DNA from: an uncultured Acetobacteraceae bacterium
Lineage (GTDB): Bacteria; Pseudomonadota; Alphaproteobacteria; Acetobacterales; Acetobacteraceae
Direction: 5' to 3'
Length of the DNA: 41,912 nucleotides
Assembly: GCA_937873225.1 (NCBI GenBank)
Contig: CALMVN010000273.1
Coordinates: 26,295 to 68,206, forward strand
The translations under genes were made by a program, and so were the position numbers. The notes below the pieces were generated by a model. The model saw only the letters and a list, made by a program, of their open reading frames with translations. It searched no databases and was not told the origin of the DNA. Below are positions 24,520-29,097 of this stretch, piece by piece. Each line of letters opens with the position of its first letter. Positions within the stretch are counted from its first letter, which is position 1.

Positions 24520-26646
24520 TCAGAAGTTCAGCAGCAGCTGCGGGATGTCCACCGAGCCGAGGCCGGTGGCGAGGTCGTAGCCGACGCCGGCGTTGAAGGC
24601 GGTCGACTGCGTCGTGGTGCTGGTGGACGAGATGCCGATGCCCTTGGTGGACAGGCTGTTGGTGTAGCAGTTCGGGGTGCCGGCCTGGCAGGCCACCGAG
24701 TTGTCGCCCACCGCGACGTCGTGGAACACGCAGAGCGGGTTCGCCGGGAAGTTGGTGGTCTGGCACTGGGTCGCCAGCAGCTTGTTCTTGTACTGGACCT
24801 TGGCGATCTGGTACAGCGCCGGCGCCATGTTGCCGACCTTGCCGTACAGCTCCGCCACCAGGGCGGCGATGCCGGCGAAGTCGGGAGCCGCGAACGAGGT
24901 GCCGCCGAAGGCGGAGCCGAGGAAGTTGTTCGGGTTGGTGAAGTCGCACGGCACGCCGCCTTCGGCCGTGTTCGACATGCACTCGAGATAGAAGTGGTTC
25001 CACTGCCCGTTGGAGGCGAACAGGGAGATGTCCGGCAGGTCGCGCACGCCGTCCTTCGGCACGCCCGGCACGCCGGTCAGCTGCCACGAGGGCTTGGCGA
25101 ACAGCAGGCTCTGCCCGCCGCTGCCGCCGACCACGTTCTGGTAGGTGGCCGCGGTCTGCGGGTTGTTGCAGTTCTGCAGCGGGCCCGCGGCGCCGGCGCC
25201 GGCCCAGTTCACGTAGGAGCCGCAGCTGTTGTCCCAGGGGATCTCCGGCACGTAGCTCTTGGCCGAGCCGCCGGTGGAACTGTTGGTGCTGCTCCAGAAG
25301 GTGCTGTTCAGCCCCACCACGGTGTCGCCGAAATCGGTGCCGCCGACCGCGGTGTCGTAGATGTTGGAGGCCAGCCCGTTGACGTTGATGCCGCTGGTGG
25401 CGAGCGTGGCGCCGGTGTCGGCGATGTCGGCCGCGCCGTCGCCGGTGGACACGAAGATGGAGATGCCCTCGGCCGCTCCCTCCTCGACCAGGTTGGACCA
25501 TTCGGTGAGGAACACGACGCCGTTCTCGAACTCGGCGCCGCCATAGGACACCGAGATCGCCGAGGCCGTGGTGCCGCCCTCGACCAGGTTCTGCAGCGCG
25601 GTCATCACGCCGAACCCGGTCTCGCTGGAGGAGCAGGCCGCCTCGATCACCGTCGCGTCCGGCGCCACCGCGCCCGACCACTCGGCGTCGAGCGCCGCCT
25701 CGCCCTCGTCGGCGGTGAAGCCCGGATCGACGCAGCCGCCCGGATGGGTGATGCTCAGCGTGCCGGCGTATCCCGACAGCCCGAACTGCGAGCGGAAGTT
25801 CTGCACGTCGGCCGGGTTGATGTCGGTCTGCTCGGCGACCGCCAGCGTCACGCCCTTGCCGGTCACCTTGCCGACCACGCTGGAGCCGCTGAACAGCCCG
25901 TTCTCGTCGTAGATGGTGTGGAAGTCGCTGGGCGTCACCGCGTAGAAGGTCGTGCCCTGCACGGCCATGGTGTAGCTGGAGCCGACCTTGTGCACCTGGG
26001 CGCCCGCGAGCGCTGCCGCGGACGGCTTGCGGCTGGCCACCAGCATCGGGCGCGGGAAGAAGTTGCCGAGCACGGCACCCTCCACCACCGGGCTGAGCGC
26101 GGACGGGAAGGACTGCTCGCCCGACGCCGCGAAGTGCCGCTGCCCGGACCGGGTGTAGCCGTGCAGCACGGTGTGGAAGGCGGCGCCGACGCTCGCCGCG
26201 GTACCGGAGAAGTCGATCGACATGCCGGTGGGCGACACCTTGTTCACCACCAGCCCGCGCGACTGCAGCCACGCCACCGTGGTGGCGATGTCGGCGGCGT
26301 CGGGCCCGTACTGGTCACGCAGCTCGGCCGGGGTGAGCCAGCGGTGGTACTCCGCCGAGCCCTTGGTGGTCTGCGCCAGCACCAGCGCGTCCAGCGCCGC
26401 CTGCTTGTCGGCAGGCCGCTTCAGCGCCAGCTGCAGGTGCTCCAGCGCGTGCCCGGACGCGAGCGGGCCCGTGTCGGTGGCGGATGCGAGGGCGGACGGC
26501 ATCGAGTGCGACAGGGTGGCCAACGACGTTTCGGAAACCGAAGCGCCGATCAGGGCGCTGCCGGTTGCGGCCTGCGCGCCTGCCGCGGCGAGACAGGCGA
26601 GCGCACAACCGAGCCCGGCCCGGTGCACGAAGTTTCTGGATGACAA
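24520..26646 (-). CDS. S53 family (sedolisin/kumamolisin-type) pro-peptidase, secreted
   Basis: Pro-kumamolisin activation region (AEYHRWLTPAELRDQYGP), EGEAALDAEW, SVSYGG, GGTSFAAPDFAG; TTG start preceded by GGGAGGATCC; signal peptide. Confidence 0.9.
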   Translation of the reverse strand: MSSRNFVHRAGLGCALACLAAAGAQAATGSALIGASVSETSLATLSHSMPSALASATDTGPLASGHALEHLQLALKRPADKQAALDALVLAQTTKGSAEYHRWLTPAELRDQYGPDAADIATTVAWLQSRGLVVNKVSPTGMSIDFSGTAASVGAAFHTVLHGYTRSGQRHFAASGEQSFPSALSPVVEGAVLGNFFPRPMLVASRKPSAAALAGAQVHKVGSSYTMAVQGTTFYAVTPSDFHTIYDENGLFSGSSVVGKVTGKGVTLAVAEQTDINPADVQNFRSQFGLSGYAGTLSITHPGGCVDPGFTADEGEAALDAEWSGAVAPDATVIEAACSSSETGFGVMTALQNLVEGGTTASAISVSYGGAEFENGVVFLTEWSNLVEEGAAEGISIFVSTGDGAADIADTGATLATSGINVNGLASNIYDTAVGGTDFGDTVVGLNSTFWSSTNSSTGGSAKSYVPEIPWDNSCGSYVNWAGAGAAGPLQNCNNPQTAATYQNVVGGSGGQSLLFAKPSWQLTGVPGVPKDGVRDLPDISLFASNGQWNHFYLECMSNTAEGGVPCDFTNPNNFLGSAFGGTSFAAPDFAGIAALVAELYGKVGNMAPALYQIAKVQYKNKLLATQCQTTNFPANPLCVFHDVAVGDNSVACQAGTPNCYTNSLSTKGIGISSTSTTTQSTAFNAGVGYDLATGLGSVDIPQLLLNF

Positions 26647-26676
26647 GTAGGGATCCTCCCAGGTTGCGCGGCCAGA

Positions 26677-26695
26677 CTGCCCAGGTTCTGGGCAG
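26677..26695. promoter_or_regulatory. Perfect inverted repeat CTGCCCAG-GTT-CTGGGCAG in the leader of the S53 peptidase gene
   Basis: 8-bp perfect arms, 3-nt centre, about 30 nt upstream of the TTG start. Confidence 0.45.
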
Positions 26696-27026
26696 AAGCT
26701 GAGACAGCTCTCGGGAACACGAACGATGCTCAACTTCTGGACAGACATTAACGGTATGCAACGGTCCGGCAAGGCTTTGTTTATGGGATTTGACGGACAA
26801 TTCGCTCCGGAACGGCTCGATCCGGATCTGCCGGCCTGATCGGGACCGGACACCACGATCGGCCGGCGCAGCCGGAAGCAACCGGCCTCACGACTCGCCG
26901 CCTCGGGAAGTCCCCGGAGGCCCATGCGGAGGTGGAACGGAACGGCCGGACCGCGACCGGTTCACGTCCTCGCGCCGGCCGCGCTCCGGCTCGTCGTCCG
27001 GGCAGGCATCCTCGCCGACCAGGTGG

Positions 27027-28028
27027 CTACGCCAGGTCCGGTGATGCTGCGGCCTGGATCCGGCCAGCCAGTTCCGGCACCGTCTCGACCAGCTCGCGCA
27101 GCTCGCGGCCGCCCAGCCCGAAGGCGGCGGGATCCAGCGGCTCCCGCCCGGCCAGCGCCGCACGCAGCAGCGCGGGCGCCGGACCCGACAGGGTGGTGGC
27201 GTTCATCACGTAGTCGGCGAACGCGTCGTGCACCGCCGGCACCCAGGCCTGCACCACGCCCAGGATCGCGTCGGCGAAGGCGCGTATCTCCGCCTGGGCA
27301 TGCGGGTCGGCGCGCAGGCTGAGGAAGCGCAGCAGGTTCCACAGGTCCACCTTCCAGTAGAACTGGGTGTAGATGCCCACCGGCAGGTTGATCCGGGCCA
27401 GCTCCCGGGCGACGCCGGCGCGCCCGGGATCGTGTGCCTCGCCCTCCGCCTCGTTCAGCATCCAAAGGTAGTTGTCGTAGCAGCGCGCCGCGTCGTCGCG
27501 CAGCATCTCGACCACGCGCGCCGCCTGCTCCGGCGCCATCGCCGCCCCCCGTCCCTGCCGGTTCGACGCCGACTGCGCCGCCACCGACTCGGGCGGGGGG
27601 ACGTAGAACTCGCGCTCCAGCACCGAGTAGCGGGCGGAGTACTCGTTGATGGAGGCGGTGCGGTGGCGGAACCACTGCCGGGTGACGAAGATCGGCGCGC
27701 GCACGTGCAGCTTGATCTCGGCCAGCTCGAACGGCGTGGTGTGGCGGTGGCGCATCAGGTAGCGGATCAGGCCGCGGTCGCTCTGCACCGCCCGCGTGCC
27801 GCGGCCGTAGGACACGCGGGCGCCCTGCACCACCGCGTTGTCGTCGCCCATGTAGTCGACGACGCGCACGAAGCCCTTGTCCAGCACCGGGATCGCCTGG
27901 AACAGCAGCGCTTCCAGCCCAGGCGCGGTGGCGCGACGGGTGGAGGCGGAGGCGGCCCGCGCGTCGGCGATCTCGGCCTGTTGCGCGTCGGTCAGGAGGG
28001 AAGCCGGAACGGGGGACGGGTTCTGCAT
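27027..28028 (-). CDS. thyX: FAD-dependent thymidylate synthase ThyX
   Basis: ThyX motif RHRTASINEYSARYS; YTQFYWKVDLWNLLRFL. Confidence 0.95.
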   Translation of the reverse strand: MQNPSPVPASLLTDAQQAEIADARAASASTRRATAPGLEALLFQAIPVLDKGFVRVVDYMGDDNAVVQGARVSYGRGTRAVQSDRGLIRYLMRHRHTTPFELAEIKLHVRAPIFVTRQWFRHRTASINEYSARYSVLEREFYVPPPESVAAQSASNRQGRGAAMAPEQAARVVEMLRDDAARCYDNYLWMLNEAEGEAHDPGRAGVARELARINLPVGIYTQFYWKVDLWNLLRFLSLRADPHAQAEIRAFADAILGVVQAWVPAVHDAFADYVMNATTLSGPAPALLRAALAGREPLDPAAFGLGGRELRELVETVPELAGRIQAAASPDLA

Positions 28029-28128
28029 CGGCTTCCTCGGGCGCGGGAATGGCCGGTCCGGGTTAGCATTCCGGGCGGACCGCTTCGAGCCCCGTTCCGA
28101 CATCTGGACGCCGGGCCCGGATCGTCCT

Positions 28129-28134
28129 ATATCT
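28129..28134 (+). promoter_or_regulatory. Possible -10 hexamer (TATATC) for ssrA
   Basis: AT-rich hexamer about 10 nt upstream of the inferred tmRNA 5' end; no strong -35 recognised. Confidence 0.3.
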
Positions 28135-28140
28135 GACGGC

Positions 28141-28420
28141 GCAAGAGGGAAACCTCGGCTACGGCGATAAACGGTACGTGGAATAAACGTTGTGGACCCG
28201 GGGGCAGTGCCCGGCGTCTCCACCATCCCGGCGACGGGACATGCGGGGACGAAACAGGCTCGACACGCGTGGTAAAGACCTACCTTTTGCTCGGCATGAT
28301 ACCGCCGTTATCGGGTCATATCACAAGTGCCAATGACAATCATGAGGCGCTCGCTGTCGCTGCATAAGTGACAAGCGCGGTTCGGGGGGGCACCGGGCAA
28401 CAGAAGCCCCCCCACTCGCT
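28141..28420 (+). ncRNA. ssrA: Transfer-messenger RNA, circularly permuted two-piece alphaproteobacterial type
   Basis: Acceptor piece GTGGACCCGGGGGCAGTGCCCGGCGTCTCCACCA (CCA ends 28225); spacer hairpin TCCCG-GCGA-CGGGA 28226-28244; coding piece starts GGGGACG at 28245 and pairs with CGTCTCC (G3:U70); tag ORF GCCAATGACAATCATGAGGCGCTCGCTGTCGCTGCATAA (ANDNHEALAVAA*) at 28329-28367; final GC-rich stem 28384-28413. Outer ends approximate. Confidence 0.95.
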
Positions 28421-28545
28421 AGTTGGTGCCCATGTGGGCGCTCGCGTGTTGGCGACTTGCACCGCACCATCGATTGTCGCATGGCTGCGCCGTATCGAGG
28501 CCCGCACCCGGTTCCCGGGCACGCGTCGCAAACGAGGAGCCCAGC

Positions 28546-29097
28546 ATGGCCGAGGACGATCGCGGCGGCGCCGGCGAGGATGGCGGCATGGCGGACAGCC
28601 TGCTGCCCTACGAAGGCTGGATCGAGCAGGCCTACCGGGAGGTGATGGTCCGGGCACTGGAGCATGCCGCCGCCGAGGGCCTGCCCGGCGGCCATCACTT
28701 CTACATCACCTTCCGCACCGACGACCCGCTGACGGTGATCCCCAAGCGCATGCTGGCGCAGTACCCGACCGAGATGACCATCGTGCTGCAGCACCAGTTC
28801 TGGGACCTCAAGGTCGACGAGGACGCCCAGCTGATGACGGTGGGGCTGTCGTTCGGCTCGGTGCCCACCTCGCTCGCGGTGCCGCTGCGCGCCATCACCG
28901 GCTTCGCCGACCCGCACGTGCGCCTGGCGCTTCGCTTCACCCCGGTTCCGGTCGAGGCGGCCGAGCCGGCGCCGGAGCCGGCGACGCAGCTCGCGGTGGT
29001 GCCGGAGCCTGAACAGCAGGAGGGTCCGGCGCCGGACCCGACGCCGCAGGTCGTGAGCCTCGACGCGTTCCGCAAGCGAAGCCCCAACCAGAGCTGA
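28546..29097 (+). CDS. sspB: SspB-family ClpXP adaptor/stringent starvation protein B
   Basis: [55 protein letters not shown]; acidic linker and conserved C-terminal VVSLDAFRK. Confidence 0.93.

Follow-up and report, generated by a model that had tools for sequence, protein, structure and literature searches.

The window, a 41,912-nt stretch of Acetobacteraceae DNA, carries a full-length tmRNA gene (ssrA) of the circularly permuted, two-piece type, which is the standard ribosome-rescue RNA of alphaproteobacteria and a kind already known. The Infernal search with the Rfam alpha_tmRNA model (RF01849) that the first-pass annotation had proposed returned a match at positions 28101-28416 of the forward strand (229.9 bits; E 1.5e-65; gathering score 50). 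This score is far above chance level, and the alignment spans the whole model (positions 1-355). ARAGORN independently called a permuted tmRNA at 28133-28458 with the tag ANDNHEALAVAA, and together the two results bear out the earlier claim of a permuted two-piece tmRNA. The newer merged permuted model, RF04321, scored 141.1 bits on the same gene. By direct reading of the letters, the encoded ACCA, acceptor stem, G3:U70 pair, spacer and resume frame all lie where that annotation had placed them. The RNA family and tRNA scan of the window found no further RNA family and no tRNA besides the tmRNA. We also considered a phage origin and rejected it, as the phage records that were searched gave no match. 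As the expected rescue RNA of an Acetobacteraceae genome, the gene on its own carries little weight beyond annotation; the more useful by-products are its spacer hairpin, its ssrA-sspB neighbourhood and, in Acetobacter, a second tmRNA that is carried on plasmids and has a changed tag ending.

We are close to certain that this is the host's single permuted ssrA and that it acts by the two-piece route, a reading that draws on observed sequence, structure, covariation, single copy number and the presence of smpB and sspB. Its processing, charging, tagging and degradation in this host would run as follows, with the two-piece maturation carried over by analogy from Caulobacter. A single transcript would contain the acceptor half, a hairpin spacer closing the end of the acceptor stem, and the coding half. 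Excision of the spacer would follow, the likeliest enzymes being RNase P at the coding half and those of tRNA 3' processing at the CCA end; the two products, about 65-85 nt and 172 nt long, would remain joined via the acceptor stem and P2. AlaRS would charge the RNA via G3:U70, and SmpB would bring the charged tmRNA to stalled ribosomes, where translation would resume on the tag. The tagged protein (A-ANDNHEALAVAA) would be passed to ClpXP, aided by SspB-alpha from the adjoining gene.

The order of the halves, with the acceptor half first, the coding half second and an encoded CCA and spacer between them, is evident both in this sequence and in a parse of 64 genes that includes it. The acceptor piece lies at 28160-28225 (+), its mature 5' end being approximate, and contains a T-arm CCGGG-GGCAGTG-CCCGG (28198-28214) placed by the RF01849 alignment, the acceptor 3' strand CGTCTCC (28215-28221) and the encoded ACCA (28222-28225). 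The 3' strand pairs with the acceptor 5' strand GGGGACG (28245-28251) in a 7-bp stem made up entirely of standard pairs, G3:U70 among them. The predicted wobble is confirmed here and recurs with a 7-bp stem in 64/64 parsed genes, even though genes were admitted to the final parse regardless of it. PMC3985003 names a G-U in the third pair of the acceptor stem as the AlaRS determinant. The acceptor stem also covaries among the 64 relatives; positions 4, 5 and 6 show changes on both sides, which is what a real helix should show. The T-loop had been flagged for departing from TTCRANY. The mismatch is real, but it is not odd in this group: GGCAGTG is the commonest form (33/64) and GGC[AG]GT[AG] is common to all 64 genes, which rules out an aberrant T-loop.

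The coding piece (28245-28416, +) comprises a P2 strand, the tag frame and a 3' pseudoknot, as delimited by the RF01849 alignment and ARAGORN. The resume frame at 28329-28367 (+), proposed from the letters and read identically by ARAGORN, runs from GCC to TAA and encodes ANDNHEALAVAA followed by a stop; the tag ends in a hydrophobic/Ala-Ala degron of the ClpXP type. The annotation had regarded this tag as specific to the sequence, a view that did not hold up: nine of the 64 parsed genes, this one included, encode it, and the eight other loci (L004, L006, L007, L008, L020, L055, L056 and L058) belong to several genera. A literature search on the exact tag found no paper. The 3'-end pseudoknot (28378-28412, +) is built from CGGU (28378-28381) with ACCG (28392-28395) and from GGGGGGC (28385-28391) with GCCCCCC (28406-28412). 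Across 45 sequences, 98.0% of its cells are paired, both sides have changed in 7 of 11 pairs, and 22 cells are doubly changed compared to 2.4 in shuffles, with a steep loss when the register is slid. For the pseudoknot PK1, inspection by eye gave no clear pairing register, and it was left out of our feature list.

The two halves are separated by a 19-nt spacer, TCCCGGCGACGGGACATGC (TCCCG-GCGA-CGGGA-CATGC; 28226-28244, +), whose predicted removal follows PMC11915505 and PMC3985003. As the annotation had proposed, it folds into UCCCG-GCGA-CGGGA, and alone it reaches -8.3 kcal/mol compared to a shuffled mean of -4.0. Its supposedly exceptional shortness disappeared on comparison: spacers among the 64 parsed genes range from 3 to 121 nt (median 28), and 10 are shorter than 19 nt. 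In the L026 and L060 genes, the coding half is set off from the ACCA by just 3 nt (TGA and TAG).

We compared the folding of 56 of the 64 spacers (those of at least 17 nt) with dinucleotide shuffles, using 223 equally long flank windows as a control. The mean z was -2.27 for the spacers and -0.19 for the flanks, with p <= 0.05 in 62.5% and 7.2% of cases, respectively; a rank test between them gave 3e-20, a value that overstates independence because the sequences are related. Spacer sequence and length vary between genera, so that the hairpin persists without sequence conservation; the spacer of the congener L056, UCCCG-GAAA-CGGGG, keeps the stem and changes the loop. Because spacers fold beyond their flanks while differing in sequence and length, the hairpin looks like a kept, family-wide feature. 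The hairpin is not discussed in the passages on permuted tmRNA that were covered, and it may already be known from classic work such as Keiler et al. 2000. We tentatively suggest, while leaning slightly towards doubt, that selection maintains the hairpin as a processing element independent of sequence, one that keeps the halves joined or directs cleavage until the cuts by RNase P and the 3' enzymes have been made, and that tag and tag-reader are kept co-evolving by the ssrA-sspB neighbourhood.

The compact hairpin, which recurs in most relatives, could also mean that the precursor is left uncut at the spacer, and that a one-piece, circularly permuted RNA works as the tmRNA with the hairpin capping its acceptor stem. 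We consider this very improbable: every relative parsed encodes ACCA at the same fixed position, an uncut 3' end is not chargeable, and in Caulobacter the tmRNA consists of two pieces (Keiler et al. 2000, cited in PMC3985003 and PMC11915505). Both citing papers describe permuted precursors as being cut into two pieces by enzymes of tRNA processing, with RNase P and tRNase Z as the probable ones.

A putative promoter with a CTGGACG-like -35 and a CTATATC -10 (28103-28133, +) was recognized by recurrence, as CTGGACG and CTATAT strings also precede the tmRNA genes of four congeners and L055; it went unflagged in a generic sigma-70 scan, and generic promoter and terminator scanning at the tmRNA gene gave nothing useful. 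Between this element and the mature acceptor piece, a short leader hairpin in the GCAAGAGG-GAAA-CCTC region (28142-28159, +) corresponds to an RF01849 stem. Several of its pairs are non-standard in the alignment, and GAGG-GNAA-CCTC-like strings occur in two congeners. These broken leader pairs, together with the draft state of the genome (4.06 Mb in 348 contigs), would suit a decayed or silent tmRNA copy whose working counterpart is absent from the assembly. Such a pseudogene is highly unlikely, as no damage is seen in the acceptor stem, T-arm, tag frame or 3' pseudoknot, the promoter-like elements agree with those of congeners, genome completeness is 99.55%, and the gene sits in a conserved thyX-sspB context.

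Copy number in the host genome agrees with a single ssrA. RF01849 has one match there, the window gene, and the one-piece model (RF00023) produced seven matches, all below its cut-off, of which ARAGORN called six as tRNA-Ala, tRNA-Ser or tRNA-Pro and left one (L038) uncalled. A standard one-piece ssrA elsewhere in the genome, one of the findings that the annotation had named as fatal to its reading, was not found above the cut-off, and the reading stands. Within this genome the window holds the only tmRNA found, with the reservation that in a 348-contig draft the absence of a second copy is not absolute. SmpB is encoded once, elsewhere in the genome (G000:C262; PF01668, 168.4 bits).

On either side of the RNA lie thyX, a divergent upstream neighbour (27027-28028, -; TIGR02170, 190.1 bits, cut-off 87.9), and sspB, the next downstream gene (28546-29097, +; PF04386, 128.6 bits), which encodes SspB-alpha. 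Among solved structures, 2qas and 2qaz come nearest to the SspB product; 2qaz carries the name SspB Protein. Among the 64 tmRNA loci, sspB follows in at least 44 and a divergent thyX precedes in at least 56, both counts being lower bounds because the flanks mostly extend for about 1.5 kb. In the reverse direction, starting from SspB in public genome contigs, a permuted tmRNA was located upstream on the same strand in 65/80 loci, and several of the others are broken by a contig end. The thyX/ssrA/sspB order (27027-29097 in the window) is widely conserved, and the gene for the tag adjoins the gene for the adaptor that reads it. In Caulobacter, SspB-alpha brings tmRNA-tagged proteins to ClpXP. 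A review confirms an SsrA/SspB/ClpXP pathway in that organism (PMC8119881). Our literature search on the ssrA-sspB neighbourhood returned nothing to the point. A gene farther upstream in the window (24523-26925, -) encodes a large protein that carries a pro-kumamolisin activation domain (PF09286) and is likely a secreted sedolisin-type acid protease.

An RF01849 RNA is present in 296/299 genomes of the order and in 5/5 genomes of the genus; G110, G238 and G280, all with high stated completeness, have no RF01849 match, reflecting either an assembly gap or real loss. Compared to the Caulobacter crescentus ssrA (RF01849 type; Keiler et al. 2000), the window gene shares the half order, encoded CCA, G3:U70, T-loop type, ANDN start of the tag frame and 3' pseudoknot, and it differs only in sequence detail, namely a 19-nt GC-rich spacer and a 12-codon tag that both fall inside the family range. 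In congeners and other Acetobacteraceae (L056, L058, L061, L069 and L055), thyX and sspB are neighbours in 5/5 and fumarase in 4/5, and the spacer hairpin is shared, with differences in spacer length and loop sequence. The tag is identical in L055, L056 and L058, one residue off in L061 (ANDNHEALALAA) and two residues off in L069 (ANDNNQALAVAA). The beta and cyanobacterial permuted tmRNAs (RF01850, RF01851) share the permuted gene logic, in keeping with the RF04321 match, but they are separate permutation lineages, and it is the alpha model that fits the window gene over its full length.

Two genomes of genus g12 in the order each hold two permuted tmRNAs, the normal copy included. Their second copies (L070:2721-3086 and L071:2445-2875) encode the tags ANDNKVALAAVA and ANDNRVALAAVA, and similar genes are found on Acetobacter megaplasmids (L154:3977-4405 and L155:3974-4339). 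The plasmids with the second type are pAC1084_1 of A. persici, where the tmRNA adjoins type I-F cas (CRISPR) genes, and pAP22518-1 of A. pasteurianus. When the second-type tag was searched for as a strict DNA pattern with the stop as TRR, 1/397 genomes of the family matched; as judged from sequence, the putative second type is rare but not unique, because G224, which has the other version, is not listed in that sample. The second-type tags read ANDN[KR]VALAAVA and end in AVA rather than AA, an ending that, as a guess from ssrA variants, could be a weaker ClpXP signal.
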